From positions 1-23,143 of IMG/VR virus record IMGVR_UViG_3300024259_000157: DNA of 23,143 bases; one strand, given 5' to 3'. The notes under the pieces were generated by a model that ran no database searches, was not told the origin of the DNA, and worked only from the letters and a program-made list of their open reading frames with translations. This DNA is from a virus. Shown piece after piece: positions 4,329 through 22,401 of this stretch. Position 1 is the stretch's first letter, and every line of letters begins with the position of its first letter. A program made the position numbers and the translations under genes.

Positions 4329-4344
4329 TATATATTTCCTCCTC

Positions 4345-4944: not shown

Positions 4945-4955
4945 TATTCCTCTAT

Positions 4956-5513
4956 TTATGTTATTACATGATATTGATAACTAAATGTTACATCAAATTG
5001 AGCAAAATCTTGAGAACTATAATCTAATGTAATGGGACCAACTGATTTAGGCCAAGCGTTTTTTAATTTTATATTTAATATCATAGGTTCAACACCACCA
5101 AAATCTGGAATTCCAGCAGTAAAATCTAAATTAAAACTTATCAAACCTAACATTTTAAATTCTAAATCTTGTTTATAATCACTATAATAGTTGGGTTTAA
5201 TTTCAGTATCATTTACAGGATAAATAAGTTGTATCCATTTTTCAAAATCTTTTCTTAATTTACCATCTATATCGAGATTAAAAGAAATTGTCCAATCTTC
5301 ATAAATTTGTTTACCACCACTTTTAAAATTTACACCTTGATATTCTACAACATGCTCTTCAACAGAGGAACCAGGGAAAGTTGATGATTTAACAAACACT
5401 TTAGTATATTCACCGAGAGACATTCCAGTTTTAATACTTGGCTCCCATTCAAATAAATATGCTCTTGCTCCTCCTTGAAATTCATTAGCAAATTGTTCTA
5501 TATTGAAACCCAT
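4956..5513 (-). CDS. Tail tube protein, gp19-like, paralog 2 of 4
   Basis: 185 residues. The ATG follows AGGAG at 6 nt. Family marks are GGARAYLFEWEP, SSTFPGSSVEEHVVEYQG (here the usual PEST becomes PGSS and NWQG becomes EYQG), DWTISFNLD, and AWPKSVGPITLDYSSQDFAQFDVTFSYQYHVIT. The centre (residues ~105-145) is extended and has a Gly/Pro-containing stretch (FTAGIPDFGGVEP) not seen in paralogs 1, 3 or 4. A TATAAATA at 5540-5533 sits ahead of this gene so that a transcript would begin just before its ribosome binding site. Confidence 0.8.
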   Translation of the reverse strand: MGFNIEQFANEFQGGARAYLFEWEPSIKTGMSLGEYTKVFVKSSTFPGSSVEEHVVEYQGVNFKSGGKQIYEDWTISFNLDIDGKLRKDFEKWIQLIYPVNDTEIKPNYYSDYKQDLEFKMLGLISFNLDFTAGIPDFGGVEPMILNIKLKNAWPKSVGPITLDYSSQDFAQFDVTFSYQYHVIT

Positions 5514-5532
5514 TATAACTCCTAAAAATAAT

Positions 5533-5540
5533 TATTTATA
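5533..5540 (-). promoter_or_regulatory. T4-type late promoter motif TATAAATA before tube paralog 2
   Basis: An exact TATAAATA overlapping the last codons of tube paralog 1. By the T4 spacing rule a transcript would start about 14 nt before the ATG of paralog 2 and would keep its AGGAG site. This would raise paralog 2 and downstream genes independently of paralog 1. Confidence 0.4.
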
Positions 5541-6066
5541 TTATTACATGGTATAAATAACTAAATGTTACATCAAATTGAGCAAAATCTTGAGAACTAT
5601 GATCTAATGTAATAGGACCTATATTTTTGGGCCATATTCCATAAAGAAATAGTTTTAAAGTTGACTCTCCTTGAGTATTTAACATTTCAAATATACTAGA
5701 TTGTACAGGATTTGCATATATTTTAGGAGATACATTTACAATAGAACCTACAACATTGTTTATACCACTCATCCAAGCTTCCATTAACATTCTTATATTT
5801 GATTTTTTATCACATAATAAAGTAACAGTCCAATCAGTATACCTTCGTGAACCTCCTACCTTATATTCTACTCCTTTCCAATATGCTGGTATTTCCTCTA
5901 CGGTACTTTCAGGTATACTTGTTGCTTTTATTAAATATTTTATATCAGCATCTAAGGCTACACTTGCTGCATAAATCAAAAGAGGAGGCACAAACCAATT
6001 AAAATGATAAGCTCTAGCTCTATCTTTTTTAGATTCGGAAACAAAAGTATCCCATTCAAAACCCAT
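5536..6066 (-). CDS. Tail tube protein, gp19-like, paralog 1 of 4
   Basis: 176 residues, first of the four and the most divergent. The N-terminal GGAR(S/A)YLF of the others is DRARAYHFNW here. The rest is clear: KATSIPESTVEEIPAYWKGVEYKVGG, DWTVTLLCD in place of DWTITFNVD, and IWPKNIGPITLDHSSQDFAQFDVTFSYLYHVI. A Leu/Ala-rich stretch (PPLLIYAASVALDADIKYL) fills the loop where paralog 3 has its insertion. The ATG follows AGAGG, directly after a 30-nt perfect palindrome that separates it from the sheath gene. Confidence 0.78.
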   Translation of the reverse strand: MGFEWDTFVSESKKDRARAYHFNWFVPPLLIYAASVALDADIKYLIKATSIPESTVEEIPAYWKGVEYKVGGSRRYTDWTVTLLCDKKSNIRMLMEAWMSGINNVVGSIVNVSPKIYANPVQSSIFEMLNTQGESTLKLFLYGIWPKNIGPITLDHSSQDFAQFDVTFSYLYHVII

Positions 6067-6115: not shown

Positions 6116-7339
6116 TTATAATCCTTCACTTGCTAAGCCAATTAATTCAGTAAATGAAGCACCTGTCTTAGTGGCTATGAAATTAAGTACAATAAATTCT
6201 GCTGCTCTAGTAGGTTTAACGTAAATATCAACCCACAATTCTTGTCTATCAATTCTTTCAGGAGTATTATTTCTTTCATCACATACTACCATGAAATCAT
6301 AAACACCTCTTCTTCCTTTTACATCTCTAAGGAAAGGTTCAATCATATTAACAATGCTAAGTCTTGTGAACTCATCATTAGGTTCAAATAGGAAATACTT
6401 AGCAGACGTTGAGATTGCTTTTTCCATTACAATAAACAACCTTCTAACATTAATTCTATTGAAAGCAGAGGATTTATCTAACATTGTTTTTTGTCCCCAA
6501 ACTACTTTACCTTGTCCGGCAAATGCTACAATAGGATTAATTCCATTTTTATAAAGTATATCTCTTTCACCAATGGTAGGTGACCATGCTAATCTTCTAA
6601 TATTAGTTATTACTGCTCTATTAAGACCGGCTGGTGCGAACCATGGATCTGATACATCATCTGTATTAGCTAAAATACCAGCCATATGACCTGCAGGTGG
6701 TACCCAACGATATTTTGAACTCCATTTATCAAACATTTCAAGCCAATTACCATACATAGCTACATAACTTGAATTTTCATTAAATGTTGCAAGTCTCCAA
6801 TCTCTTAAATTGGTAGTTTCACTTCCTGCTTGATTGACAACATGTGTACTATAACAATCACACAAGGCTATGCAATCTTTCCTTGATTCTGCAATAGCAA
6901 CAAGTCTTTGTTTTACAGTAAGTCGTTTATCAGCATCAATAAGAATATTAACATCAATTTCTTCATCATTTTGATATAAATTATAACCATTGATACAGGC
7001 GGTATCTTCAAGTGCTGGATCATCATCCCATGCGTCAAAATTTTCAAGGCCACCTGCTAATTGCTCATATGATACTGTAGTACAATAAAAATCATTATTA
7101 ATTACATTTGCACCTAATGCTATTCTAATATATTTTGATTCGTTATTAATTACATTTGGTGCATAAATATTTTTACCTTCATCATCAACTTCCGTCTCAT
7201 CGGTTGATACATAATACGCTTCTCTTAAATAGTATGTTAATGATGCTTTATTCAGAGAATCTTGATTAGCCGATTTGACTATTACAATAAATCCTTTTTG
7301 ATCTTGAATGGGAAAATCGAGTCCATCTACATCACCCAT
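6116..7339 (-). CDS. Tail sheath protein, C-terminal two thirds (second frame)
   Basis: A 407-residue frame that continues the sheath begun upstream. It contains GKNIYAPNVINNESKYIRI, which resembles the G.N.Y...VIN..S.YI pattern of T4 gp18. It also has a long core including DWRLATFNENSSYVAMYGNW, PPAGHMAGILA and RINVRRLFIVMEKAI, then the C-terminal RQELWVDIYVKPTRAAEFIVLNF typical of contractile sheaths. The ATG at 7339 has no ribosome binding site, and the frame is closed just upstream by TGA, so independent translation is unlikely. One extra T in the TTT at 7342-7340 would join it to the upstream frame as DESFMGDVDG. Either the assembly lost one base, the gene is truly mutated, or the ribosome shifts here. 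Sheath subunits surround the tube and contract to drive it into the cell. Confidence 0.85.
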   Translation of the reverse strand: MGDVDGLDFPIQDQKGFIVIVKSANQDSLNKASLTYYLREAYYVSTDETEVDDEGKNIYAPNVINNESKYIRIALGANVINNDFYCTTVSYEQLAGGLENFDAWDDDPALEDTACINGYNLYQNDEEIDVNILIDADKRLTVKQRLVAIAESRKDCIALCDCYSTHVVNQAGSETTNLRDWRLATFNENSSYVAMYGNWLEMFDKWSSKYRWVPPAGHMAGILANTDDVSDPWFAPAGLNRAVITNIRRLAWSPTIGERDILYKNGINPIVAFAGQGKVVWGQKTMLDKSSAFNRINVRRLFIVMEKAISTSAKYFLFEPNDEFTRLSIVNMIEPFLRDVKGRRGVYDFMVVCDERNNTPERIDRQELWVDIYVKPTRAAEFIVLNFIATKTGASFTELIGLASEGL

Positions 7340-7926
7340 AAAGATTCATCCAATGTGCCACCAAGGTCTTGATATTGTACATATGTTCCACCACCACCTG
7401 ATGTTACAATAGAATAAGCATCATTATCAATTATTGCTATTTTTGTATAATTTCCCCATACACCTCTTGAATTAGCTACAATAGCAATATCATTACCTGA
7501 TGTTGGTAATGCAGAAAATGGTGATTCTTCCTGGAATTTATCAGGATCATCACCATCAAGATCAGCCATTACAAAGGCATTACCGGTTGTATATGCAGTA
7601 AAATCTGATGTTTCTGAACCAGATACACCTAAACTTCCATAGGTACCCGCAAATGTTGATGTTTCTGGCATAGCCCTTGTACACCATAATTTATTTCCAT
7701 ATTTTAAATAACCCATTGCAGCCATCATATCTTTATAACTGTAATTTGTAGGTTCGCCAAAAGCATCAAGAAGTTGCTCTAAATTAGTGACCAAATGTGT
7801 TTTTAATTCTGGTCCCTTCCAAGTTCTTCTTAATACTAAAACAGCAGTAGATGTTGCAACAGCTGGAATGGATGTTGTCAAATCAACTTCATTAACGTCC
7901 ACTTGTGGACTTAGATAAAAAGCCAT
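7327..7926 (-). CDS. Tail sheath protein, N-terminal third (first frame)
   Basis: 199 residues starting MAFYLSPQVDVNEVDLTTSIPAVATSTA, the usual N-terminus of gp18-like sheaths (SPGVxVxExD). Next come LVLRRTWKGPEL, FGEPT, DMMAAMGYLKYGNKLWCTRA and an NDIAIVANSRGVWGN segment. The ATG follows AGGAGG. The frame stops at a TAG at 7329-7327, 13 nt into the overlap with the continuing frame. The two parts sum to about 600 residues, near the 659 of T4 gp18, so this is one gene in two frames. The site (TCT TTA TGG) is not a recognised slippery heptamer, which favours a single-base deletion over programmed shifting. Confidence 0.87.
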   Translation of the reverse strand: MAFYLSPQVDVNEVDLTTSIPAVATSTAVLVLRRTWKGPELKTHLVTNLEQLLDAFGEPTNYSYKDMMAAMGYLKYGNKLWCTRAMPETSTFAGTYGSLGVSGSETSDFTAYTTGNAFVMADLDGDDPDKFQEESPFSALPTSGNDIAIVANSRGVWGNYTKIAIIDNDAYSIVTSGGGGTYVQYQDLGGTLDESLWVM

Positions 7927-8058: not shown

Positions 8059-8574
8059 TTAGATTACTGAATACTCACGAATTTCAAATCTATCATAGGT
8101 AAATGAAACTTGTGTTTCCAAATTCATTTCCCCCTCTCTATAATTCATAGTGACTTCACCCATACTCGTAGGCCATATATCAACAAAAAATAATGAAAAC
8201 TTTTGGGCTTGAAAATTATCCACAATTCTTAATGTTGCATCTGTTGCGTAATTCTTTTGTGTATCTATATATTTATCTTTATTATTATTTATGAACATGA
8301 ACCAATTAAATATTAATTGCCAGTTCTTAAATTCAGAATCAACCATGAAATTAACATTTAATGGCTCAAATGTTAATGCTCCTGTTGCTCTATTCGTTTT
8401 ACCACCTTGCCAATTTTGTTCAACCATATCCATTGTAACACCTGGAATCACAGTTTCATATATATTTAAAACGAATTCCTCAGCAGCTCTTAATTCAGAT
8501 TGTTCAGGTATTAATGGAAATACCAATTCAAAACTAAATGGACTTGCTTTATTTAATTGAGTGTCTAATGCCAT
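8059..8574 (-). CDS. gp19-like tail tube family protein upstream of the sheath
   Basis: 171 residues, distantly related to the four tube paralogs beyond the sheath. It has IPGVTMDMVEQNWQGGKTNRATG where they have ATS.PEST.EE....WQG, then FMVDSEFKNWQLIFNW, and ends IWPTSMGEVTMNYREGEMNLETQVSFTYDRFEI in place of AWPKSVGP.TLDYS...AQFDVTFSY.YH. The N-terminal GGAR motif is missing. The gene lies between the gp15-like gene and the sheath, so it may be a specialised ring at the neck end or baseplate end of the tube, or the main tube protein itself. AAGAGGAG lies 5 nt before the ATG. Confidence 0.75.
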   Translation of the reverse strand: MALDTQLNKASPFSFELVFPLIPEQSELRAAEEFVLNIYETVIPGVTMDMVEQNWQGGKTNRATGALTFEPLNVNFMVDSEFKNWQLIFNWFMFINNNKDKYIDTQKNYATDATLRIVDNFQAQKFSLFFVDIWPTSMGEVTMNYREGEMNLETQVSFTYDRFEIREYSVI

Positions 8575-10343: not shown

Positions 10344-10967
10344 CTAGAACCCATATATGGACTCATCAACATCTGAATAAGCGTCTATATCTTCTGATTC
10401 ATCTTCAATCCATTCATTATCACCATATGCTGTTAATGGTTCACTCAATGTACTATCAACATCATATGATATATCTTCTGCTGATTCAGATTGTTCACTA
10501 AATCTGTATGGTTTCAATATAAATTCCCATACTAAATGTTTCAATTGAAAGACACTACCTTCCATACCTACATCCACCACTTCATATGATCTTTCATTCC
10601 ATAATGTTTGTATAACATCACCAGGTTTAGGTTCATATGGACTACCACTTATATCTCTTGTAAAGGTTGATTTAGGGATCCATCCCATATCAATAACATC
10701 AACAGAGGTTATACCAAAGGTATCAATAACACCTGCTTCCTCTGTGATTTCATATGTCATTTTGGATTCATAAGGACCGAGATATGCGGTATTATCTGAT
10801 TCACCATATAGTCTATCCATGGTTATATTCTCATCACGAATATAATACTGAATTTTGGCACCCTGTATATCATTATATTCAACTACAACTGAATCATATA
10901 AATCATGTTCAATATTACCATCTTGAGGATGATACATATCCCAGCCAGGGATCTCTAAGGTACTCAT
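10344..10967 (-). CDS. Neck protein, gp14-like
   Basis: About 207 residues from the ATG at 10967, which overlaps the TGA of the HNH gene (ATGA) and lies 8 nt after GGAG. An ATG two codons earlier is too close to that site. The core GAKIQYYIRDENITMDRLYGE, the KPGDVIQTLWNERSYEVVDVGME turn and LKHLVWEFILKPYRFSEQSE follow the pattern of T4 gp14. In T4, gp14 closes the head after packaging, together with gp13, and makes the docking site for the tail. The last ~50 residues are strongly acidic (Asp/Glu/Ser) and low in complexity, as in T4-group gp14 tails. It is separated from its usual partner gp13 by six small genes and an HNH gene. Confidence 0.72.
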   Translation of the reverse strand: MSTLEIPGWDMYHPQDGNIEHDLYDSVVVEYNDIQGAKIQYYIRDENITMDRLYGESDNTAYLGPYESKMTYEITEEAGVIDTFGITSVDVIDMGWIPKSTFTRDISGSPYEPKPGDVIQTLWNERSYEVVDVGMEGSVFQLKHLVWEFILKPYRFSEQSESAEDISYDVDSTLSEPLTAYGDNEWIEDESEDIDAYSDVDESIYGF

Positions 10968-11773
10968 ATACATTTCTCCATTAAATCTTTGATTTTACAT
11001 CCATCCTTTTGATGTGCTTCCTTATGACAGTCAACACAATAAGTTATACAATTATCAACATCTGCTGATTCTATTGGATTGATTGATACTGGATAAATGT
11101 GGTGACAATGTAAAGGACCTTTACTACCACACTTAACACACTGATATTTATCCCTTTCCAGTACCATTTTTCTTAATTCGGGTTGAACTTCTCTATTGAG
11201 TTCTAACCAATCTAATCTACCTGCTCTTATTGCATCTTCTTTCATAAGTGTTTCTGGTTTCTTACCATATATAGAACAACTATTCTTACAATTATCAGAA
11301 CAATAAAACTTATTTTCGGATAAACGATTATTTTTTAAATGTTGTATTCTATGATCTACATTTATTAATGTTGGTATAAACCATTCATTACATTTAACAC
11401 ATCTCACTTCAAGTATGTTTTTATCAGTTGGGCTTCTTCTAACCTCTTCACACCATTCTAATTGTGGTGCATATGTGTCATATAGGGGAATACCTTTAGA
11501 ATGATATCCGCCTTTCCAAAAATGACATTTATCACCTTTCATATTATTATGCATTTTTATTTTATGTTTTTCTGTATGATGTTTATTGAAAAAAGGATTA
11601 TTTTCACCTTTATTAGAACAATTTTTATTACAAAATTTACTATTCTTATAACCAAAATATTCTTCCCCGCAATTTTTACAAACTTTGAAATAGTATGTTT
11701 TATTCTTTCTTCTTAATGTATATTTCTTTTTATTATATTTAAATTCTTCTAAATTATCCCAACATATCTTCAT
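10964..11773 (-). CDS. HNH homing endonuclease, copy c
   Basis: 269 residues from ATG 11773, which is 8 nt after AGGAGG and starts MKICWDNLEE as in the sister copies. A TTG two codons upstream is rejected. The order is: a short zinc-ribbon (CKNCGEEYFGYKNSKFCNKNC), one NUMOD3-like repeat (NPFFNKHHTEKHKIKM), a middle domain (HFWKGGYHSKGIPLYDTYAP, then WCEEVRRSPTD, CVKC..W, YCSDNCKNSC), and a C-terminal HNH nuclease (YQCVKCGSKGPLHCHHIYPV, then DNCITYC.DCHKEAH). The HH pair, the Asn and the final His form the metal site, and the two CxxC pairs hold zinc. It lies between a paralog-family gene and gp14-like and overlaps the latter by 4 bp. The full motif set is intact, so it is likely active. Its leader RNA is described separately. 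Confidence 0.9.
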   Translation of the reverse strand: MKICWDNLEEFKYNKKKYTLRRKNKTYYFKVCKNCGEEYFGYKNSKFCNKNCSNKGENNPFFNKHHTEKHKIKMHNNMKGDKCHFWKGGYHSKGIPLYDTYAPQLEWCEEVRRSPTDKNILEVRCVKCNEWFIPTLINVDHRIQHLKNNRLSENKFYCSDNCKNSCSIYGKKPETLMKEDAIRAGRLDWLELNREVQPELRKMVLERDKYQCVKCGSKGPLHCHHIYPVSINPIESADVDNCITYCVDCHKEAHQKDGCKIKDLMEKCI

Positions 11774-11863
11774 AATCAATTCCTCCTAAAAATTGTTATA
11801 TTTGGAGTAAGGTTGGATATTAGGAGTATCCAACCAAAGGGAGCTACCCTCTGTCCTCCTATA
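11774..11863 (-). promoter_or_regulatory. Structured leader RNA of HNH copy c (P1-P2-P3 with loop-SD pseudoknot)
   Basis: Minus-strand order: AGGAGGACAG at 11860-11851, whose GGAG can pair with CTCC at 11807-11804 (P1). Hairpin P2 lies at 11850-11838 (AGGG/CCCT). Hairpin P3 at 11835-11811 has 9 bp (GGTTGGATA with TATCCAACC) and a 7-nt loop CTCCTAA. The loop is exactly complementary to TTAGGAG at 11789-11783, which contains most of the HNH Shine-Dalgarno AGGAGG. The element starts directly after the stop of the upstream gene. Pairing of loop and Shine-Dalgarno would block ribosome entry. The same fold with different bases precedes the other two HNH genes. Confidence 0.85.
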
Positions 11864-12319
11864 TTATTTACCTGCTTTAATTTTATATTTCTTTAAGAAT
11901 TTATCAACCTTGACATAACTATTGATCCATTGTGAATCCTTATATAGTTTATCCATATCAATAACTTGTCCTTCCTTTTCTATGTGATAATATTCTATAA
12001 TATCCGATTCAACCATTACATACTTACCACCTTTAAGTTCAGCAATCCCAAATATAATAACACTTGCATCTATTACATCTTTATAATCTATTGATCCACC
12101 ATATACTTTTTGATATATTTTACTATGCACATCATTTCCTTCATACCAAATCCATATCTTCTTGGATCTATTATCAGAAATGAATCTAATACTTTTATAT
12201 TTTTCCCATCTCAGAATTTCTTTAATTTCTTTTTGGGAAGGATTCTCTAATACTTCAAATCTTTCATTACTATAAGTATTTTTCATCCATAGTTCATTTA
12301 TGTATTTAAGTAATCTCAT
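11864..12319 (-). CDS. Paralog family of unknown function, member 1 (last in order)
   Basis: 151 residues, N-terminus MRLLKYINELW. The family signature follows: FEVLENPSQKEIKE, IRFISDNRSKKIWIWYE, an invariant His (DVHSKIY, with Tyr where the other members have Trp), ELKGGKYVMVESD, and the C-terminal SQWINSYVKVDKFL. It is the member with the most Lys-rich C-terminus (KKYKIKAGK). No known domain is recognised. The start codon overlaps the stop of member 2 (TAATG), so translation is probably coupled. Its stop lies one base before the leader RNA of HNH copy c. The short N-terminal MRLLKYINE resembles the T4 capsid-targeting signal, so packaging into the head is an inference worth testing. Confidence 0.8.
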   Translation of the reverse strand: MRLLKYINELWMKNTYSNERFEVLENPSQKEIKEILRWEKYKSIRFISDNRSKKIWIWYEGNDVHSKIYQKVYGGSIDYKDVIDASVIIFGIAELKGGKYVMVESDIIEYYHIEKEGQVIDMDKLYKDSQWINSYVKVDKFLKKYKIKAGK

Positions 12320-12756
12320 TAGTCATACTCTTTCATATAGTTATTTAAAAGTTTATTAATCTTTATATAAGGATTAACCCATTTAAAACCTTTGATTATA
12401 TCAGCAACCTTAACATCCAGATTTTCTCTTACTTCATAATCCATCCATTCATAATCATCCCATACACTCATTTCCCATTTATTACCAATCTTTACTGCTG
12501 CTCCTTGTAACACTTGTGTATTAGGTATAGAACTATATCCTGTTTTAAATATTCCATTCCAAACCTTCTGATGATTAACTTCATAAGCATTCCATACATA
12601 AAGTTTTTTAGTTTTTTTAATAGCAGTAAATCTAATAGATGAAGCATTAAGTTCTTTAATATCACTCATACTATCAGGTGGTATTTCTAATACTTCTATT
12701 TTTTTACTAAATGGTTTTATCCATAGTTCATTTAGAATGTATTTCTGGAGTCTCAC
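12319..12756 (-). CDS. Paralog family of unknown function, member 2
   Basis: 145 residues. The start is GTG at 12756. An ATG two bases upstream is out of frame and runs straight into TGA. It is the most divergent member. The N-terminus is MRLQKYILNELW with one extra residue, NPS.KEM is replaced by IPPDSMSDI, and IRFIAD becomes IRFTAI. It keeps KKLYVWNAYEVNHQKVW with the invariant His, an Asp in the SD position (SVWDDYEW), and FKWVNPYIKINKLL. Loss of the NPS.KE motif suggests a changed specificity, or that this motif is not essential. It begins 1 nt after the stop of the small coiled-coil gene. Confidence 0.8.
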   Translation of the reverse strand: MRLQKYILNELWIKPFSKKIEVLEIPPDSMSDIKELNASSIRFTAIKKTKKLYVWNAYEVNHQKVWNGIFKTGYSSIPNTQVLQGAAVKIGNKWEMSVWDDYEWMDYEVRENLDVKVADIIKGFKWVNPYIKINKLLNNYMKEYD

Positions 12757-12757
12757 A

Positions 12758-12907
12758 TTATTTTCCTGCTAGCATCTGAGTAACTTTTTCTTCTAACATT
12801 TCAATTCTTTTTCTTAATGCTTCTATAAGTGTTGGATGTTCTTCTTCCAAATCCTTATATTCCTTTACTTGCATTTGTTCATATAATTGTCCTAATCTAT
12901 CCGACAT
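12758..12907 (-). CDS. Small coiled-coil protein (49 residues)
   Basis: ATG at 12907, 6 nt after a very strong GGGAGGAG site. Stop TAA at 12760-12758. The product starts MSDRLGQLYEQMQVKEY and continues as a charged helix (LIEALRKRIEMLEEKVTQML) with Leu/Ile/Met at heptad spacing, so a two- or three-stranded coiled coil is likely. It lies between paralog members 3 and 2 with a 21-nt gap on one side and 1 nt on the other, in the same operon. Function unknown. It could be a scaffold, an adaptor or a regulator. The strong ribosome binding site suggests high expression. Confidence 0.75.
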   Translation of the reverse strand: MSDRLGQLYEQMQVKEYKDLEEEHPTLIEALRKRIEMLEEKVTQMLAGK

Positions 12908-12928
12908 TCTTACTCCTCCCTATAACTA

Positions 12929-13354
12929 TTATTTATTCATCCATTGTTTCATAAACTTATCAATTTTAATAAGTTTATTGACCCATAGAGATTCTTTATA
13001 TAATTCTTCTTTATCTTTTATATCATTCTGTCTCCATTCCAAAATATCAGAAGCAACCATTACATGAGATCCACCTTTTTGTTCTGCTATACCAAATATA
13101 CCATAATTTTGTCCATCTTTATAATAATTTATACCTTTATTTATTTTAGAGTTTTCTTGCCATACTTCAACATGAATTGCTACGGAAGCCTTCCATACCC
13201 ATAATTTTTTATCACTATTAACAGCAATAAATCTAATGGTATTACCTTCACCAATTTCTCTCATTTCCTTTTGGGAAGGATTCTCTAACACTTCAAACTT
13301 ACTATGATTGCGTGTATCCATCCAAAATTCATTTATATATTTCTGAAGTCTCAT
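12929..13354 (-). CDS. Paralog family of unknown function, member 3
   Basis: 141 residues, MRLQKYINEFW. Motifs are FEVLENPSQKEMREIGEGN, IRFIAVNSDKKLWVWKA, SVAIHVEVW (invariant His), EQKGGSHVMVASD, and LWVNKLIKIDKFMKQW. It is the shortest member and closest to member 1 (shared FEVLENPSQKE, FGIAE.KGG, VMV.SDI), which points to a fairly recent duplication of these two. The ATG follows the stop of member 4 by one base and has no good ribosome binding site of its own, so it probably depends on re-initiation. Confidence 0.8.
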   Translation of the reverse strand: MRLQKYINEFWMDTRNHSKFEVLENPSQKEMREIGEGNTIRFIAVNSDKKLWVWKASVAIHVEVWQENSKINKGINYYKDGQNYGIFGIAEQKGGSHVMVASDILEWRQNDIKDKEELYKESLWVNKLIKIDKFMKQWMNK

Positions 13355-13355
13355 A

Positions 13356-13796
13356 CTATAACCATTGATTGAACATTCGTTTAAAAAATTTATCTATGTT
13401 CATGTATGTCTTTAACCATTGTGCATTATCATACAACTCTTCTAAGTATTCAGCTGGATCTCTTTTACCATGTTGTATTTTATCAGATTCAGTTAATATC
13501 CAATTACCACCCATTTTTTTACACATACCAAATAAATATTTAGTAAGATCCACTTGCATCCACCTAACACCTTTAGATATTTTTGTTACTTCAGTCCAAA
13601 CATCATGATGTATTAATGAAATAGGACTAAAGATCCATAAAGTCTCACTATCATTATCAGCAATAAATCTGAGTTCATTGAAGTTATCAGTAGATATTTC
13701 AAGCATTTCTTTTTTAGAAGGATTTTTAATAACTTCATATTTTCGACCACCATAGGTCTTAACCCATTCCTCATTTATATAGTGTTTAAGTCTCAT
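13356..13796 (-). CDS. Paralog family of unknown function, member 4
   Basis: 146 residues, MRLKHYINEEW. Motifs are YEVIKNPSKKEMLEIS, LRFIADNDSETLWIFSP (the usual VWDA is IFSP here), ISLIHHDVW with the invariant His, KKMGGNWILTESDKI, and AQWLKTYMNIDKFFKRM. The start overlaps the stop of member 5 by four bases (ATGA). The loss of the Trp-Asp pair after the hydrophobic strand sets it apart from members 5-8 and agrees with those residues being structural or specificity-related rather than catalytic. Confidence 0.8.
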   Translation of the reverse strand: MRLKHYINEEWVKTYGGRKYEVIKNPSKKEMLEISTDNFNELRFIADNDSETLWIFSPISLIHHDVWTEVTKISKGVRWMQVDLTKYLFGMCKKMGGNWILTESDKIQHGKRDPAEYLEELYDNAQWLKTYMNIDKFFKRMFNQWL

Positions 13797-14227
13797 TTTA
13801 GGTCTCTTTTTATATTATCGGATATTTTAATATATTTTTCAACCCATCGCCATTTCTTCAATACATCATTAACACTTATCTCTTTTTCTTTTACATAAAA
13901 TTCAAATTCACTATTACCATCCAAACTAGACATAATAGCCTTTCCTTTTATTAATCTGGCATATCCAGGTAATATCCTACCATCATATATATCATCAGAA
14001 AGGTCTGCTGAATTTAATTGATGCCAAGTAGGCCCATGTAAAGGACCATAAACATCCCATACAAATACTAATTTTTTCTTATTATCAGCAATGAATTTAA
14101 TACCTAAACCATTCTGTGATAACTCCTTCATTTCTTTAAAGGAAGGATTACTGAATACTTCATAAGATTTACCAGCATCCTTTACCCTAGTTTCATATGA
14201 CTCATCCATATAATGTTTTAATCTCAT
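13793..14227 (-). CDS. Paralog family of unknown function, member 5
   Basis: 144 residues, MRLKHYMDESY. Motifs are YEVFSNPSFKEMKELS, IKFIADNKKKLVFVWDVYGPLHGPTW (invariant His), LPGYARLIKGKAIMSSLD (Asp kept, Ser lost), and WRWVEKYIKISDNIKRD. The ATG overlaps the gp13-like stop (TAATG), so it is coupled to a virion gene. That coupling means it is made at the time and roughly the level of a neck protein, which fits a structural or packaged product. Confidence 0.8.
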   Translation of the reverse strand: MRLKHYMDESYETRVKDAGKSYEVFSNPSFKEMKELSQNGLGIKFIADNKKKLVFVWDVYGPLHGPTWHQLNSADLSDDIYDGRILPGYARLIKGKAIMSSLDGNSEFEFYVKEKEISVNDVLKKWRWVEKYIKISDNIKRDLK

Positions 14228-15078
14228 TATCCTATCTCTATCCCGTATCCCTCGTAAACTTCTTTAGCTATAAGACTCTCACTTAATCGTTCCATCTCAG
14301 CATCAGCTTCTCCAATTAAATCACTACCATCCAATGCTATACCTTGATTACCTAATGAACCAAAGGATGCAAATTTTCTTCTAACCATACCAAGCATCTT
14401 CTTAGCATAAGCAGTAGCAAAATCTAATACCCATGTGCTATCATAGATATATTCATAACTATCATTAATTTCCCAACTAGGACTTGTGGTGGAACCTTGT
14501 ATCATAAAACTTCTAATTAAAACCCAACCAGGAGAATTAATAGTTACTTCATCACCTAATACTTCAACACCTGCTTCACTAGCATATTTAGGTGTATAAG
14601 TTAAAGTGGCACCTGATGCTGGAGGAGGTTGTATTTCTAATTGATTAGTATATTTATGGTATTTATAGTTATAAGCGTCAGGAGTATATCTTCTTAAAGT
14701 ATCTATAAAGTCTCTTGCTATATGGTATGATACTAGGCTATATCCTTCATAACTATTAATAAGTCCATCTAACATACCTCTACTATACATATAATTTTCA
14801 ACAGTAAATAGTGTATTGATACCACCTGTTTCACTACTTCCAGTTTCATATGATAATACTTCTGTAACACCAGTAGGCAGATCATACATATATTGGGTTG
14901 CGGATAATGCCATTGTGAAATAAACTTCTTGTGTTGCATTACCTACTGCATATTTCATAAACTTAGAACGAGCGTAGTCTATGGCATCATATATTTGAAT
15001 TTCGGATAATTCCACCTTCACCATAGGATATCCGAGATTTCTTTTAATTTTCTCTGAGAGTTGCCCCTTCGTTTGCAT
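14227..15078 (-). CDS. Neck protein, gp13-like
   Basis: 283 residues (T4 gp13 is 309). The N-terminal QLSEKIKRNLGYPMVKVELSEIQIYDAIDYARSKFMKY, then YDLPTGVTEVLSY, and the C-terminal WVLDFATAYAKKMLGMVRRKFASF followed by a Gly-rich loop and DLIGEADAEMERLSESL, match the gp13 pattern of T4-like and cyanophage neck proteins. gp13 and gp14 join the portal after packaging and hold the genome in. The ATG is 9 nt after AAAGGAG, which lies inside the last codons of HNH copy b. In T4 gene 14 follows 13 directly; here five paralog-family genes, one small gene and an HNH gene stand between them. Confidence 0.78.
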   Translation of the reverse strand: MQTKGQLSEKIKRNLGYPMVKVELSEIQIYDAIDYARSKFMKYAVGNATQEVYFTMALSATQYMYDLPTGVTEVLSYETGSSETGGINTLFTVENYMYSRGMLDGLINSYEGYSLVSYHIARDFIDTLRRYTPDAYNYKYHKYTNQLEIQPPPASGATLTYTPKYASEAGVEVLGDEVTINSPGWVLIRSFMIQGSTTSPSWEINDSYEYIYDSTWVLDFATAYAKKMLGMVRRKFASFGSLGNQGIALDGSDLIGEADAEMERLSESLIAKEVYEGYGIEIG

Positions 15079-15081
15079 GTT

Positions 15082-15975
15082 TTAACACTCCTTTCGTTTC
15101 ATATTACATTCCTTCTGTTTATGAATTTTATTATGACATTGTTTACAAAAAGTTACACAATTATCTACATCAGCACTTTCAATAGGATTGATCTCTACAC
15201 CTGTTATATGGTGACAATGTAAAAGTTTTTTGCTACCACATTTAACACACTGATATTCATCCCTTTCTAACACCAATTTCCTTAATTCAGGCTGCACTTC
15301 TCTGGAAGTATCAATTTTAAACTCTTTGGGCCATTTTCTTTGGTTAAATATAGGACAAGATTTTTTACATCCATCAGAACAATAAAATCTTCCCTCACCT
15401 TCATTTATAGTATTACCTTTTATTATTTGTATTCTGTTTATAACATTCCATAATTTTGGTATATACCATCTTCCACAATAGACACACCTCACTTCAAGTA
15501 TGTTTTCATCAATTGGACTTCTTCTAACTTCTTCACACCATTCTAATTGTGGTGCATATGTATCATATAGGGGTATACCTTTTTTATGATAGCCACCTTT
15601 CCATAAATGACTATTTTTCCCACTATTAGATTTGCCAATTTTTTCTTTTACAGCATTCGGTAGTTTTTTACCATTCATATGATGTGAACATTTAGAGTAT
15701 TTTTCTTTTAGAGATTTACTTATATTTATACTATGTTCCTTTGTGAGTTTTTTACCTTTATGTGATTCACTTTGTTTATCTTTTGTTTCCTTTGACACAA
15801 TTCTTAATGATAAACAAAATTTAGAACAATAAATACTATGTTTATTACCAAGGAAGGGTTCCTTGCATACTTTACATGATTCTTTATATATCCAAGTGCT
15901 ATTACATTCACTATACCATTTACCCGTTCTCTTACTGTATCTTAACCCTTCCAGGTTATCCCAACATATCTTCAT
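15082..15975 (-). CDS. HNH homing endonuclease, copy b
   Basis: 297 residues from ATG 15975 (8 nt after AAGGAGG). A TTG six codons upstream lies inside that ribosome binding site and is rejected. The layout matches copy c: MKICWDNLEGLRY, zinc-ribbon (CKVCKEPFLGNKHSIYCSKFC), NUMOD3-like repeats (HKGKKLTKEHSINISKSLKEK and NGKKLPNAVKEKIGKSNSGK), the shared middle domain (HLWKGGYHKKGIPLYDTYAP, WCEEVRRSPID), and HNH (YQCVKCGSKKLLHCHHITGV, DNCVTFCKQCHNKIH). It lacks the KEDAIRAGRL.WLELN segment of copies a and c, having FKIDTSREVQPEL directly. It sits between paralog member 6 and gp13-like. The DNA is very close to copy c in the middle domain, so they share recent ancestry. Confidence 0.9.
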   Translation of the reverse strand: MKICWDNLEGLRYSKRTGKWYSECNSTWIYKESCKVCKEPFLGNKHSIYCSKFCLSLRIVSKETKDKQSESHKGKKLTKEHSINISKSLKEKYSKCSHHMNGKKLPNAVKEKIGKSNSGKNSHLWKGGYHKKGIPLYDTYAPQLEWCEEVRRSPIDENILEVRCVYCGRWYIPKLWNVINRIQIIKGNTINEGEGRFYCSDGCKKSCPIFNQRKWPKEFKIDTSREVQPELRKLVLERDEYQCVKCGSKKLLHCHHITGVEINPIESADVDNCVTFCKQCHNKIHKQKECNMKRKEC

Positions 15976-16065
15976 AATAATTACCTCCTTCAAAGGTTTA
16001 CTTGTTAGGAGTTAGGTTCGATGTTGAAGGCATCAAACCAAGGTGATCAAGCCCTGTCCTCCTAT
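15976..16065 (-). promoter_or_regulatory. Structured leader RNA of HNH copy b (P1-P2-P3 with loop-SD pseudoknot)
   Basis: AGGAGGACAG lies at 16063-16054, and AGGAG there can pair with CTCCT at 16011-16007 (P1). P2 is weaker (AGG.. with CCTT) and encloses TGATCA. P3 has 9 pairs, GGTTTGATG (16039-16031) with CATCGAACC (16023-16015), including one G-U, and loop CCTTCAA. The loop is exactly complementary to TTGAAGG at 15993-15987, adjoining and overlapping the Shine-Dalgarno AAGGAGG. Compared with copies a and c, both the P3 stem and the loop-target pair have changed on both sides. The TAA of the upstream gene overlaps the first base of the element. Confidence 0.85.
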
Positions 16066-16508
16066 TAACTATTATAATCAATCCAATCATCTAATGCATC
16101 GGTTATATTAATATATCTATCTACCCATTTGAAATTCTTTTTAAAATCTCTCATACTATCTGGTTCATATCCAAAGTAAGCATCCATTTGATCGGATTCA
16201 ATCATTTTATATTTACCACCTTTCTTTTTAGCAACACCCTCTAATATGACACCTTTCATTGCTAATGAGCTTTCAGTACCATTTGCATTAATATAATCAT
16301 CCCAAGTGCGAGAATGTATTTCTTTCATAGCATCCCATATATATATTTTCTTATCTCTGGAATCTGCTATAAATCTTATTTCACCTTTTTCAGGTCTAAG
16401 ACTATCAACATCACGCATAGACATTTCAGGTAGTTCAATTATTTCAAACTTTTCACCTTTTATATTTTCACCCCATACCTCATTCATATATTTTAATAGC
16501 CTACTCAT
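16065..16508 (-). CDS. Paralog family of unknown function, member 6
   Basis: About 147 residues from the ATG at 16508, which is 6 nt after GGAAG and gives MSRLLKYMNEVW. An ATG two codons upstream touches that site and is less likely. Motifs are FEIIELPEMSMRDVD in place of the NPS.KEM block, IRFIADSRDKKIYIWDAMKEIHSRTW with the invariant His, KKKGGKYKMIESDQM, and FKWVDRYINITDALDDW. It is the most acidic member at the C-terminus. It overlaps member 7 by 8 bp, the same overlap as members 7 and 8, which suggests that the three arose by in-place duplication of one unit. Confidence 0.8.
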   Translation of the reverse strand: MSRLLKYMNEVWGENIKGEKFEIIELPEMSMRDVDSLRPEKGEIRFIADSRDKKIYIWDAMKEIHSRTWDDYINANGTESSLAMKGVILEGVAKKKGGKYKMIESDQMDAYFGYEPDSMRDFKKNFKWVDRYINITDALDDWIDYNS

Positions 16509-16944
16509 ATCCATCTTCCTTCATAATTTTTTTAAGATAATCTTCTATATTAATATATCTATTTACCCATTTGAAGTCTTTTATAATATCCCTAATATAG
16601 AATGTTTTGTTATCCATTTGATAATGTATTTCATCAGAAAAATTCATTACATATTTACCACCCTTCAATTCACATTCTCCATGTAATACAGTTTCACAGG
16701 ATTCCCTATTAAAATTTCTTCCTTTACCTGTCTCCAGATCCCATACATCATTATGAATAGCAACAAAGGAATCCCAAACATATACTTTTTTATCTTTATT
16801 ATCAGCAGTGAATCTAACACCATCCATCTCATCCACTTGTTTCATTTCTTTTACAGAAGGATTAACAAAGACTTCAAAGGATTGACCTTTCCTTTTAAGT
16901 CTTGTTAGGTATTCCTCATTTATGTATTGTTTAAGTCTAGTCAT
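16501..16944 (-). CDS. Paralog family of unknown function, member 7
   Basis: 147 residues from ATG 16944, with GGGAAG upstream at 6-7 nt, giving MTRLKQYINEEYLTRLKRKG. A longer frame starting ten codons earlier has no ribosome binding site and an unrelated leader, so it is rejected. Motifs are FEVFVNPSVKEMKQVD, VRFTADNKDKKVYVWDSFVAIHNDVW (invariant His), LHGECELKGGKYVMNFSDEI, and FKWVNRYINIEDYLKK. It is close to the family consensus and could serve as the query for searches. Confidence 0.82.
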   Translation of the reverse strand: MTRLKQYINEEYLTRLKRKGQSFEVFVNPSVKEMKQVDEMDGVRFTADNKDKKVYVWDSFVAIHNDVWDLETGKGRNFNRESCETVLHGECELKGGKYVMNFSDEIHYQMDNKTFYIRDIIKDFKWVNRYINIEDYLKKIMKEDGYE

Positions 16945-17389
16945 TATATTCTTCCCATTCTTTTTCCCATTCATCTAAAATACTTAAATCAATATATTTA
17001 TTGACCCATTTGAATTTCTTTTTAAATGCTTTCATCTTCTGATATAAAAATCTATCATTTATTCTATCTGATCTAGTCATTGCGTATTTTCCTTTAACCT
17101 TTTCAGCATTACCAGGTAATAAAACTAATTGTTCAACTAGATTGCCAAATTTCATTATATCTTTAGGTTTAATAAATTCCCAGGCTTCATAATGTATCGC
17201 TTTATCCGCATCCCATACATATACAGTTTTATCTCTGGAATCAGCTAAGAATCTAACACCTAATGATGTGGTATCAAGTTCTCTCATTTCTTTTGCAGAA
17301 GGATTAATAAATACCTCATAAGAATTCTTACCATATACGGTTGTTAATCTCATTAAGTATTCTTCATTTATATATTTTAATAATCTCAT
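16937..17389 (-). CDS. Paralog family of unknown function, member 8 (first in order)
   Basis: 150 residues, MRLLKYINEEYLMRLTTVYG. Motifs are YEVFINPSAKEMRELD, VRFLADSRDKTVYVWDADKAIHYEAW (invariant His), LLPGNAEKVKGKYAMTRSDRI, FKWVNKYIDLSILDEW. The ATG lies 9 nt after the stop of HNH copy a. Members 7 and 8 share the extended N-terminal helix (INEEYL.RL) and are the closest pair by eye. The family looks like a compact alpha/beta domain of ~110 residues behind a short leader peptide. I recall similar sequences only as hypothetical proteins of environmental phages and cannot name a family. Confidence 0.82.
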   Translation of the reverse strand: MRLLKYINEEYLMRLTTVYGKNSYEVFINPSAKEMRELDTTSLGVRFLADSRDKTVYVWDADKAIHYEAWEFIKPKDIMKFGNLVEQLVLLPGNAEKVKGKYAMTRSDRINDRFLYQKMKAFKKKFKWVNKYIDLSILDEWEKEWEEYND

Positions 17390-17398
17390 AATTATTCC

Positions 17399-18265
17399 TT
17401 AACATATCTCCATTCTTAATTGACCATACTTGCATCCATCCTTCTTATGTGTTTCCTTATGACAATCTATACATAATGTTATACAATTATCCATATCTGC
17501 GGAAAATAAAGGCTCAATGTTTACAGGATAGATATGATGACAATGTAAATTTTCAGATGAATCACATTTAACACATTGATATTCATCCCTTTCTAATACC
17601 ATCTTCCTTAATTCTGGCTGAACTTCCCTATTTAATTCTAACCAAGATAACCTTCCTGCTCTTATTGCATCTTCTTTTATAATGGTTTCAACAGGTTTAT
17701 AGTATATAGGACAAATATTTTTACATTCATCGGAACAATATAATTTACATTCTCCCTTATTAGTGTTATTTATTGCTTGTATTCTATTTCTTATATTATT
17801 TATTCGAGGTATATACCACTTTCCGCAATATGCACATTTTACTTCTAATATGTTTATATCAGTTGGGCTTCTTCTAACTTCTTCACACCATTCTATTTGC
17901 GATGCATAAGTATCATATAAGGAAATACTTTTAGAGGAATATCCACCTTTCCAAAAATGGCATTTATTACCTTTATGTGATTTACTATTATTTATTTTAT
18001 GTTCTTTTGAAATTTTTCTTTTCTTTATTTTAATACTTATTTTCTTTTTAGTTTCATTTGAATGTTGTTTTTTATAAAATGAATTATATTGTTTATTTTG
18101 GGAACATAAACGTGAACAAAATCCTTTATTATTTTTACTAGCCAAATAAGATTCACCACAATTCTTACATGACTCTTTATAACAATACGAAACTTTTTTC
18201 TTATACCATTTACCTGTTCTCTTATTATACCTTAACCCTTCTAGGTTATCCCAACATATCTTCAT
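17399..18265 (-). CDS. HNH homing endonuclease, copy a
   Basis: 288 residues starting MKICWDNLEGLRY, 8 nt after GGGAGG. Zinc-ribbon CKNCGESYLASKNNKGFCSRLC, two Lys-rich NUMOD3-like repeats (QHSNETKKKISIKIKKRKIS, KEHKINNSKSHKGNKC), the shared middle domain (HFWKGGYSSKSISLYDTYAS, WCEEVRRSPTD, CAYCGKWYIP, YCSDECKNIC), and HNH (YQCVKCDSSENLHCHHIYPV, DNCITLCIDCHKETH). All expected metal and zinc residues are present. It stands between the terminase and paralog member 8. As a free-standing endonuclease it would cut related genomes lacking the insertion and be copied in by repair. Confidence 0.9.
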   Translation of the reverse strand: MKICWDNLEGLRYNKRTGKWYKKKVSYCYKESCKNCGESYLASKNNKGFCSRLCSQNKQYNSFYKKQHSNETKKKISIKIKKRKISKEHKINNSKSHKGNKCHFWKGGYSSKSISLYDTYASQIEWCEEVRRSPTDINILEVKCAYCGKWYIPRINNIRNRIQAINNTNKGECKLYCSDECKNICPIYYKPVETIIKEDAIRAGRLSWLELNREVQPELRKMVLERDEYQCVKCDSSENLHCHHIYPVNIEPLFSADMDNCITLCIDCHKETHKKDGCKYGQLRMEIC

Positions 18266-18352
18266 AATAACTACCTCCCTAATAGGTTTAATTAGGAGTG
18301 AGATTGATAATTAGGGTATCAATCAAAGGGTGGCCACCCTCTGTCCTCCTAT
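18266..18352 (-). promoter_or_regulatory. Structured leader RNA of HNH copy a (P1-P2-P3 with loop-SD pseudoknot)
   Basis: AGGAGGACAG at 18350-18341 pairs through AGGAG with CTCCT at 18298-18294 (P1). P2 is a perfect 14-nt palindrome at 18340-18327 (AGGGTGG with CCACCCT). P3 is an 8-bp stem, GATTGATA (18324-18317) with TATCAATC (18309-18302), with loop CCCTAAT. That loop is exactly complementary to ATTAGGG at 18283-18277, which overlaps the Shine-Dalgarno GGGAGG. The unpaired GACAG between P1 and P2 is the same in all three leaders. A TATAAATA motif upstream predicts a transcript starting at the first bases of this element. Confidence 0.87.
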
Positions 18353-20007: not shown

Positions 20008-21504
20008 TTATACTATAAGTTTCGGTTCCACTACAAATTGAATCTCTGACTTGTCCTCCCTTGTCCTCAAATAAACCTTGTTACCCCACAATCGACATAT
20101 ATGCTTACAAGTCTCCTTAGCATATCTCCCTTCCAAGTCCATATGATTCCACCTGTGTTCCAGTAACAATGAACCATTTCCATTAACATTACCATCCACT
20201 ACCTCAATTAAAGGAATACTTGAATGGGCAAAACTATTGATAATCATAGTTTTAATTTCCTGTGCTTTCTTCTTAATGATAACATAGTCAATAGTTGAAT
20301 GTGTTTCCTGTTTCTGATAGATATACATATTCAATTCATCAACTAATTTATCTGTTAAAAAGTTTTGAAAAAATGCCCAATCAGTGTATGTCCTCATTAC
20401 ACTCTTACACTTCTCCCAACCTTTCATTTCCTCAGTATCCCAATCTTCCCTTTCCTTTTCATCTGAACATAAGTCCCAATCTTTACCATGTTGACCTGTA
20501 TCCCATCTATGTTCAATATCCTCCCACATCTTACTACCAATAAGGTAAGGGTTCATAGATTCAGGATTCTCTGCCTTAACCAATGCGTTTGAATAAGTAT
20601 ATTGTGCGTGATCAGATATATTTAACACATCCTCTTGAAATAGTTTTCTCATTACTTTCTCATGTACAAAGGTAGCCCAACCCTCATTAAGATAATGGGT
20701 TTTCATCATAGGCCAGAAATACTGTCCTTCCATCCTCAACATTTCCAAGATATCCTTTTGCCAATCCTCCAAGATACGGGAATTATCAATAATATATCTT
20801 AGTAAGTCTGTAGTAGGCTCAACAGGAGACTTCAATCTCAAATTTCTTTTAATCTTCTGTAATACCAATTCTAGGTCATGGTTAAAGTCTCTGATATCAT
20901 TGGGAATAAGATCACTATATTCTTCTGTTGATTGATGAGAACTAATAATCTTTTGCTTAACATGATTATATATTCTTTCCCTTTTTTCATCTTCTGTTTC
21001 TTTTTCAAAGGGACTTGAATGTAATTGAATAGCATGGCCAGCATCCACTATATGTTCAATTTCATCTATACCATACTTCCTTTCATATTCATTAAATCGT
21101 TTATTTGCTTGAGCCATTACACCCATTATGTCTTGTCGGCTATTTGTGAAATATTTATTCTCCGCAAATACATTAACGTGACCAAACACATGAGCAATTA
21201 CTAACGCATGAACAGCAAAAGTATTGTTATTCATAAGAAAAGCTCTAGCAGGATCAGAATTGATAACCACCTCATATGGAAGATTGGAACTATATTTCTC
21301 ATAAATAGTTCTTAATCTTTCGTAATTTCTACCATACTTCCAAGAGGATATATTGGTAGGAATACGATAAGCCATAATCTCCAACATCTTTTGAGGTTGA
21401 CAAATATCAAACTCAATGTCATAGACCTTCAAACCCATATCATCAACAATTTGTTTAACTCGTTCCTCAACCTTAATAAGTTTTTGAAACTCTTGTTTTT
21501 TCAT
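20008..21504 (-). CDS. SpoVR-like protein
   Basis: 498 residues, close to bacterial SpoVR/YcgB (about 470-510). The N-terminal third is diagnostic: WKYGRNYERLRTIYEKYSSN, LPYEVVINSDPARAFLMNNN, then VIAHVFGHVNVFAENKYF, whose His residues are a possible metal site. Further on are LEDWQKDILEMLRMEGQYFWPMMKTHYLNEGWATF and NPYLIGSKMWEDIEHRWD, also standard for the family. In bacteria the gene is linked to prkA and yhbH/yeaH and acts in spore cortex formation or stress adaptation; its biochemistry is not settled. Here it overlaps the upstream GIY-YIG gene by 4 bp (ATGA) and lies downstream of a YhbH-like gene, so two of the three partners are present. AAAGGAG precedes the ATG. Confidence 0.92.
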   Translation of the reverse strand: MKKQEFQKLIKVEERVKQIVDDMGLKVYDIEFDICQPQKMLEIMAYRIPTNISSWKYGRNYERLRTIYEKYSSNLPYEVVINSDPARAFLMNNNTFAVHALVIAHVFGHVNVFAENKYFTNSRQDIMGVMAQANKRFNEYERKYGIDEIEHIVDAGHAIQLHSSPFEKETEDEKRERIYNHVKQKIISSHQSTEEYSDLIPNDIRDFNHDLELVLQKIKRNLRLKSPVEPTTDLLRYIIDNSRILEDWQKDILEMLRMEGQYFWPMMKTHYLNEGWATFVHEKVMRKLFQEDVLNISDHAQYTYSNALVKAENPESMNPYLIGSKMWEDIEHRWDTGQHGKDWDLCSDEKEREDWDTEEMKGWEKCKSVMRTYTDWAFFQNFLTDKLVDELNMYIYQKQETHSTIDYVIIKKKAQEIKTMIINSFAHSSIPLIEVVDGNVNGNGSLLLEHRWNHMDLEGRYAKETCKHICRLWGNKVYLRTREDKSEIQFVVEPKLIV

Positions 21505-22328
21505 ATAACTCCTTTCAAAGAATACTTCCCTTTATACAATTTATTTTTATTCTTATATCCATAGAATGTGCTATAATTTATATTCCTTCTTTTACACCAA
21601 GTTTTCAAATCATCAATTTCTTCACCATTTATCAACCATTTTTTCATATTGAATGATCTGAATTCCTCTTTTCTATCTTTTCTCATTTCTTTTACTCTTT
21701 TGCCCATTTCCTTTTTTAAGGTAACATTATCATTCCACGATTTTTTTATAGATTCACTTAATTTTTTTCTGTATATTTCATCAGACCTGAATTCCATTTG
21801 CTTTTTTCTATACTCCGGATTCTCCCAATTTTTCCTTTGTCTTATTCTAGTGTTTTCTTTATTCTTTGCAGTACCACATGCCTTTCTTATTTTTTTTACC
21901 TGATTCTCTCTATACTCTGAATTCTCCCAAACTTTTTTTTGTTTTAAACCTACCTTTTCCCGTTCTTCTTGTTTTTCATACCTTTTTGATTGTCCCTTAC
22001 TCATTTTTTTCTTAGTTTCGTCTGAACATTCATAACCAAATTTACCTTCACCACCCCAAGAAAGATTATATCCTCCATTACCAAAACTATCATATTGTTT
22101 AATGTAGTGAAATTCCATCTCATTCATTTCTTCTTTAGATGAACACTCTTCAATTACTTCCCACTCAAAATTGTCCCATCCATGTTTATTGAGAGCATTA
22201 TAGAAATAAATGTTTTGTTTATTTCTATATCTTGTTTTATGTCCTCGTTTTCTTTTCTCTAATGCTCCTATAGTTTGACCTATATAACATTTACCATCAA
22301 TTTTATTTGTCACTTTATATATTATCAT
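21501..22328 (-). CDS. GIY-YIG homing endonuclease between YhbH-like and SpoVR-like genes
   Basis: 275 residues. The nuclease domain shows IYKVTN (3-8), CYIGQT (14-19), Arg 26, catalytic Glu 72 in NEMEFHYIKQYDS and GYN at 86-88. It is nearly identical in design to the copy at 9559 for the first ~90 residues. The rest differs: instead of NUMOD3 repeats it has a long Lys/Arg/Glu-rich helix region with repeated KKVWENSEYRENQ / RKNWENPEYRKKQ / KKSWNDN units, then a C-terminal CKRRNINYSTFYGYKNKNKLYKG segment like a NUMOD1 domain. A different DNA-binding half on the same nuclease half suggests retargeting by recombination. Its ribosome binding site sits in a palindrome with an overlapping late promoter. 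Confidence 0.9.
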   Translation of the reverse strand: MIIYKVTNKIDGKCYIGQTIGALEKRKRGHKTRYRNKQNIYFYNALNKHGWDNFEWEVIEECSSKEEMNEMEFHYIKQYDSFGNGGYNLSWGGEGKFGYECSDETKKKMSKGQSKRYEKQEEREKVGLKQKKVWENSEYRENQVKKIRKACGTAKNKENTRIRQRKNWENPEYRKKQMEFRSDEIYRKKLSESIKKSWNDNVTLKKEMGKRVKEMRKDRKEEFRSFNMKKWLINGEEIDDLKTWCKRRNINYSTFYGYKNKNKLYKGKYSLKGVI

Positions 22329-22330
22329 AT

Positions 22331-22356
22331 TAAATACCTCCTAGGAGGTATTTATA
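22331..22356 (-). promoter_or_regulatory. RBS-sequestering hairpin with overlapping TATAAATA promoter, before the GIY-YIG gene
   Basis: Positions 22331-22354 are a perfect 24-nt palindrome with centre CCTCCTAGGAGG. As RNA it forms a 10-bp stem with a CUAG loop, and the AGGAGG of the right arm is the GIY-YIG ribosome binding site (8 nt from ATG 22328). TATAAATA at 22356-22349 overlaps the left arm. T4 spacing puts the start at about 22343, in the loop, so late RNA would begin UAGGAGG and leave the site free, while read-through RNA would hide it. This is the logic known for T4 I-TevI. Confidence 0.8.
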
Positions 22357-22401
22357 TAAAACATATGTTATTTTATATTACCTCTACTTCCCTTATTATA
22401 C
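22357..22401 (-). other. Short AT-rich gap after the YhbH-like gene
   Basis: 45 bases between the stop of the YhbH-like gene and the promoter/hairpin of the GIY-YIG gene. Apart from a 10-base palindrome (AACATATGTT) I see no structure and no terminator, so read-through from the YhbH-like gene into the GIY-YIG and SpoVR-like genes is expected. Confidence 0.4.

Follow-up and report, generated by a model that had tools for sequence, protein, structure and literature searches.

The leader that precedes each of three HNH endonuclease genes in the window, that is, in the whole 23-kb (23,143 nt) stretch of an IMG/VR virus record that carries a tail sheath and a terminase of the T4-like myovirus type, is probably (about 0.8) an RNA lock that acts in cis on translation and moves together with mobile (homing) endonuclease genes. 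It is about 85 nt long and was found in about 64 copies (63 distinct), most of them in metagenomic viruses and some in five isolated Enterocloster phages, CB457P1 and CB473P3 among them. The letters of the loop-loop pair that would close the lock on the Shine-Dalgarno sequence (SD) differ in almost every copy.

The three leaders of the window (A, B and C) are located on the minus strand, and each reaches the ATG of one HNH gene (18265, 15975 and 11773). The sequence-only reading had described their shared sequences and stems and the 7-nt loops of P3 (L3), each complementary over seven of seven bases to the SD region of its own gene; all of these are present, the full complementarity in 3/3 leaders (table 1). 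That reading also proposed a pseudoknot, of which the long-range pairing between loop and SD is retained, but not the form of the contact. Complementary bases flank the SD-side partner (ACCT-ATTAGGG-AGGT in A, ACCT-TTGAAGG-AGGT in B and CAATTT-TTAGGAG-GAATTG in C), and therefore the SD is divided between the 7-nt loop (L4) of one more conserved hairpin, P4, and the 3' strand of that hairpin. Since the partner of L3 is the loop of P4, the contact is a 7-bp kissing loop and not a pseudoknot between a loop and a single strand. The sequence AGGAGGACAG occurs within the window in the three leaders only, with 0.74 occurrences expected at up to one mismatch.

Table 1. Positions of the leader elements and of the genes that follow them in the window
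Feature	Positions	Strand	Remarks
Leader A	18352-18266	-	
A, P1 5' strand TAGGAG	18346-18351	-	in homologs P1 pairs change on both sides
A, junction GAC	18343-18345	-	
A, P2 hairpin	18325-18342	-	invariant A-U and G.U at base
A, P3 5' strand GATTGATA	18317-18324	-	
A, kissing loop L3 CCCTAAT	18310-18316	-	7/7 with L4
A, P3 3' strand TATCAATC	18302-18309	-	
A, P1 3' strand CTCCTA	18293-18298	-	
A, P4 5' strand ACCT	18284-18287	-	P4 covariation
A, P4 loop L4 ATTAGGG	18277-18283	-	part of SD; pairs with L3
A, P4 3' strand AGGT	18273-18276	-	remaining SD
HNH endonuclease gene 1	17399-18265	-	start codon 18265-18263; PF01844 19.3 bits (cut-off 21.4); PHROG HNH endonuclease
Leader B	16065-15976	-	
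B, covariance-model match	15982-16064	-	86.7 bits
B, P1 5' strand TAGGAG	16059-16064	-	
B, P2 hairpin	16040-16055	-	
B, kissing loop L3 CCTTCAA	16024-16030	-	P3 arms 16031-16039 and 16015-16023
B, P1 3' strand CTCCTA	16006-16011	-	
B, L4 TTGAAGG with SD	15987-15993	-	P4 arms 15994-15997 (ACCT) and 15983-15986 (AGGT)
HNH endonuclease gene 2	15082-15975	-	start codon 15975-15973; PF01844 22.2 bits, above cut-off
Leader C	11863-11774	-	
C, covariance-model match	11778-11861	-	74.6 bits
C, P1 5' strand GGAG	11856-11859	-	
C, P2 hairpin	11836-11852	-	
C, kissing loop L3 CTCCTAA	11820-11826	-	P3 arms 11827-11835 and 11811-11819
C, P1 3' strand CTCC	11804-11807	-	
C, L4 TTAGGAG with SD	11783-11789	-	P4 arms 11790-11795 (CAATTT) and 11777-11782 (GAATTG)
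HNH endonuclease gene 3	10964-11773	-	start codon 11773-11771; PF01844 25.6 bits and NUMOD3 20.9 bits, above cut-offs

In all three leaders the RNAfold minimum-energy structure contains P1, P2 and P3 and places the SD inside the P4 hairpin, whose loop is drawn with fewer than 7 nt in two of them. Their folding energy is mildly unusual (z -1.5 to -2.2) and by itself unremarkable; the case for the structure rests on covariation. Calculated for free duplexes and not for the constrained kissing complex, the leaders' own L3-L4 pairs reach -7.2 to -7.6 kcal/mol, compared with -1.9 to -5.1 for cross pairs, an advantage of 2.3 to 5.7 kcal/mol for the own partner over those of the other leaders. Each leader of the window prefers its own SD, and the cross pair of -5.1 indicates that the separation is incomplete.

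Further copies were gathered from IMG/VR by an HNH alignment search and by leader-pattern searches. In the first set of 46 leaders the loop-SD match has a mean of 6.2 bp when loop and SD come from one leader and of 3.9 bp when they come from different leaders; the observed mean was reached in none of about 300 permutations. In the alignment A2 (40 leaders), 89.4% of the pairs are standard, two-sided changes are found in 24 of the 30 pairs, and the covariation score is 0.51 as against 0.20 after shuffling and at most 0.15 after sliding. From A2 we built a covariance model, R1, that includes P1-P4 and leaves out the kissing pairs, so that its matches outside A2 are a held-out test of the kissing loop. 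In 18 of these 26 matches L3 and the SD region downstream of it can form at least six contiguous Watson-Crick pairs, with a mean of 5.8 within and 3.8 across leaders (0/2000 permutations). Among the eight exceptions, L070-5942 and L011+649 precede damaged genes, L128 has lost its gene, and L080 was mis-parsed by the script and pairs by eye (CCCGTAT/ATACGGG); L122, L009 and L130 belong to an opposite-strand variant, the latter two being the same site, and the eighth is L131.

In the final alignment A3 (64 matches, 63 distinct), the seven kissing pairs are 89% formed and their covariation score is 0.65, compared with 0.19 for shuffled and at most 0.16 for slid controls. Two-sided changes occur in six of the seven kissing pairs among the 63 distinct rows and in all pairs of P1, P3 and P4 (four pairs in P4), and all four Watson-Crick types occur in the innermost kissing pairs; these counts ignore kinship, which is addressed in part by the slid controls and by how diverse the pair types are. 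The SD and P4 occupy the same place in almost all copies. A scan with a looser P2 pattern yielded 76 stretches, nearly all of them chance, and together with two smaller scans gave 80 loci (0.7 Mb), of which the covariance model kept eight, doubling as a specificity control. The selection on the loop-SD pair that had been proposed from three leaders, and that a covariance model and homolog search were suggested to check, is thus upheld: loop-SD covariation is present in further homologs, and the pair persists in about 60 more copies, including matches outside the training set of the model.

Several candidate matches and readings were set aside. L131 is a chance match, and L009 and L130 (upstream of HNH) and L122 (upstream of GIY-YIG) were excluded because they match on the opposite strand only and have no kissing pair. 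At these sites (L009 2886-2969, minus; L130 1898-1981, plus; L122 1797-1895, minus) a related-looking element, GGACARTTCGGTARATAGCTCCACCGAA, lies on the opposite strand just upstream of the HNH or GIY-YIG gene. A decoy-SD role of the 5' AGGAGG was rejected, since P1 reads AAAAG, ATGGG or GCGG, among others, in some copies and its partner changes along with it. Some P2 loops are palindromic (UGAUCA, UGGCCA, UAGCUA), but dimerisation through them was rejected as a general feature, UCGCU, UUGCU, GACG and GAUA loops also being present. Transcription attenuation is not favoured, since the leaders read have no U-run after P4.

The sequence-only reading placed the leader before HNH genes. This applies to the three in the window, but elsewhere it precedes several other endonuclease families and intron-borne genes as well. 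The downstream genes encode mostly HNH (PF01844), GIY-YIG with NUMOD3, HNH_3/zf-His_Me and probable Vsr/REase-like proteins; some have sub-threshold REase_MTES_1575 matches with DUF559, DUF7487 or CapR domains, and one is Mom-like. At least two copies stand before other kinds of gene: L078 (405-489) precedes a gene that resembles Staphylococcus phage replication initiators and lies beside a portal-like gene, and L080 (188-272, minus) precedes a cut-off gene not recognisable as an endonuclease; L3 and L4 co-vary between L078 (CCCGCAT/ATGCGGG) and L080. Many relatives of the HNH gene have no leader, and therefore the leader is not essential. Several copies before broken genes retain the kissing pair, and in L128 (283-393) a truncated leader stands between terminase and neck gene with no endonuclease between them, which is a probable scar of endonuclease gene loss.

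Some leaders stand between genes, others within group I introns, in the P8 loop. Four copies, from the 180-kb record behind L069 and L126, overlap group I introns (Rfam); P8 is the site in two aligned intron copies, and the other two are assigned to it from their position. The leader lies outside the intron core, in the P8 loop or beside introns, and is not scored as RF00028 core, and no Rfam intron was found at the free-standing leaders of the window. When known phage genomes were searched, the HNH protein gave no match, and leader DNA gave meaningful matches only in the Enterocloster phages. In these five phages a diverged leader (L3 CTGCAA, and L4 TTGCAG within P4 ATCTTT/AAAGGT) is located just after a group I intron core, 14 nt before a GIY-YIG gene annotated as intron-associated endonuclease 1.

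We infer repression from the masking of the SD together with what has been published on such hairpins of homing endonucleases, and its timing and an opening signal are likewise predicted. P1, P2 and P3 form a three-way junction whose core is near-invariant (GAC/UNA, together with an A-U pair and a G.U wobble) and which presents the 7-nt loop of P3; P4 holds the SD in its 7-nt loop and 3' strand. In the proposed mechanism, with L3 and L4 joined in a kissing loop of about 7 bp, P4 closed and L4 occupied, the 30S subunit would be kept off, and read-through transcripts would yield little endonuclease as long as the contact holds. In the intron copies the lock would, in addition, prevent ribosomes from entering the ribozyme while it folds, as shown for the I-TevI hairpin. 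Such silencing would answer a need of selfish endonucleases, which may harm the phage or block splicing of their host intron.

It should be asked whether masking is all that the junction does. In A3, G7, A8, A10 and U73 are invariant (64/64), as are C9 and A75 (63/63), and 58 of the 63 distinct copies have G.U as the second pair of P2, whereas the helices around this core vary freely. The motif that had been read as an invariant GACAG is invariant as GACA, but not in its final G. Most copies were gathered with patterns or a model containing GGACA, so that the invariance is somewhat overstated; copies found via protein alone also show the invariant core. Conservation of this core (GACA, U73, A75 and the G.U wobble) exceeds the need of simple masking, and from it we infer a candidate sensor, riboswitch-like or protein-gated, in which a metabolite, a phage protein or a protein of the host, such as a ribosomal protein, would bind the junction and thereby open or close the kissing loop. 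This is possible but somewhat doubtful: the core may owe its conservation to junction geometry only, the analysis identified neither a ligand nor a partner gene, no riboswitch in Rfam matches, and the leader precedes several gene types without shared metabolism. It is similarly tentative that the near-invariant junction is an aptamer or protein-binding core, one riboswitch-like sensor having been acquired by unrelated endonuclease families and a phage replication gene. A ribosome that ends translation of the upstream gene could instead unfold P1 and free the SD, making the endonuclease dependent on upstream translation. Of the leaders with a detected upstream frame, about half (two of the three in the window included) begin 0-20 nt after its stop codon, and yet this coupling is unlikely, as many other copies lie 30-190 nt past the stop codon and a trailing ribosome could hardly serve the intron-borne copies, which have no close upstream frame. 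Of the ways in which the lock might open, binding of a protein or a ligand to the near-invariant junction may be the most interesting; it may also be that the lock does no more than fix a low basal rate.

Two further explanations dispense with a regulatory RNA. The leader moves with mobile genes and stands at their 5' edge, as would a protein operator, a homing site or a recombination end acting at the level of DNA. However, the letters of L3, P3 and P4 vary with pairing kept and the G.U wobble is conserved, which suits RNA and not a DNA site read by its sequence, and a DNA element is accordingly most improbable. Chance or shared ancestry of anti-SD-like loops could be suspected because L3 is often CCT-rich, like any anti-SD, but it is excluded by the cross-pairing control given above, by the four Watson-Crick types of the innermost pairs and by the held-out test. 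The cis-acting lock is the reading that is preferred here.

The leader can be compared with several known systems. In the ColE1 plasmid, RNA I and RNA II meet through kissing loops in trans, between two RNAs, in copy control; the leader is similar in that seven-nucleotide loops pair along their whole length, but both of its loops are in one RNA and the target is the SD. In preQ1-class pseudoknot riboswitches a loop reaches downstream to the SD and the core is conserved, as in the leader, whereas the leader has no Rfam match and no known ligand, and the partner of its loop is a hairpin loop instead of a single strand. The autoregulatory pseudoknot of T4 gene 32, which lies well upstream of the ribosome binding site and nucleates gp32 binding without pairing with the SD (PMC3014915), is likewise a structured phage mRNA leader that controls translation, control by the present leader being predicted. 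The closest setting is that of the homing endonucleases themselves: the SD hairpin of I-TevI restricts translation, its removal harms td splicing, an SD-masking hairpin limits translation of mobE in Aeh1, and a similar structure is implicated for segB (PMC3014915, PMC2988022). In the I-TevI/mobE type a late promoter lies inside or beside the hairpin, and late transcripts lack its 5' half (PMC3014915, PMC2988022). The structures of T4 I-TevI/II/III and segB and of Aeh1 mobE share with the leader the masking of a homing-endonuclease SD by RNA structure, but they are single, local and gene-specific hairpins with the 5' arm directly upstream of the SD, whereas the leader adds to the local P4 a conserved three-way junction of about 85 nt and a loop-loop helix, and is common to several unrelated endonuclease families. 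The Rfam search that had been proposed found no matching family, riboswitches included, in Rfam 15 at gathering and permissive thresholds, the best sub-threshold matches being chance-like, and the literature searched holds no description of the leader, a 2017 set of 224 candidate structured RNAs standing outside this comparison. The leader appears to be undescribed as an RNA family and as an architecture, its mode of working being the known SD masking of homing endonucleases.

The window has other features of its own. At 22337-22358 (minus) the perfect palindrome AAATACCTCCTAGGAGGTATTT masks the SD of a GIY-YIG gene (21501-22328; fold z -3.7) and is a classical endonuclease SD hairpin beside the new leader type. 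About seven tandem paralogs of a protein of roughly 145 residues, starting with MRLLKYINE or similar, are located at 11864-17389 (minus), and the members scanned gave no convincing Pfam and no PHROG match. The tail sheath is encoded at 6116-7926 (minus) over two overlapping frames (7327-7926 and 6116-7339), which may be a frameshift, a split gene or an assembly error. Four to five tandem tail-tube-like paralogs were recognised by eye from shared motifs at 3783-6066 and 8059-8574 (minus).

What does the leader mean for the genes that carry it? If the junction is a sensor, it would time the expression of the endonucleases and of the replication gene to the state of the infected cell, and its near-invariance makes a sensed signal directly testable. 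Each loop of the window pairs best with its own partner, which would suit the module for use as an orthogonal switch of translation. A single RNA architecture, its loop-loop lock re-coded in almost every copy, is common to several endonuclease families, free-standing and intron-borne, and this sharing suggests an expression module that is mobile, and strong selection for tight control.
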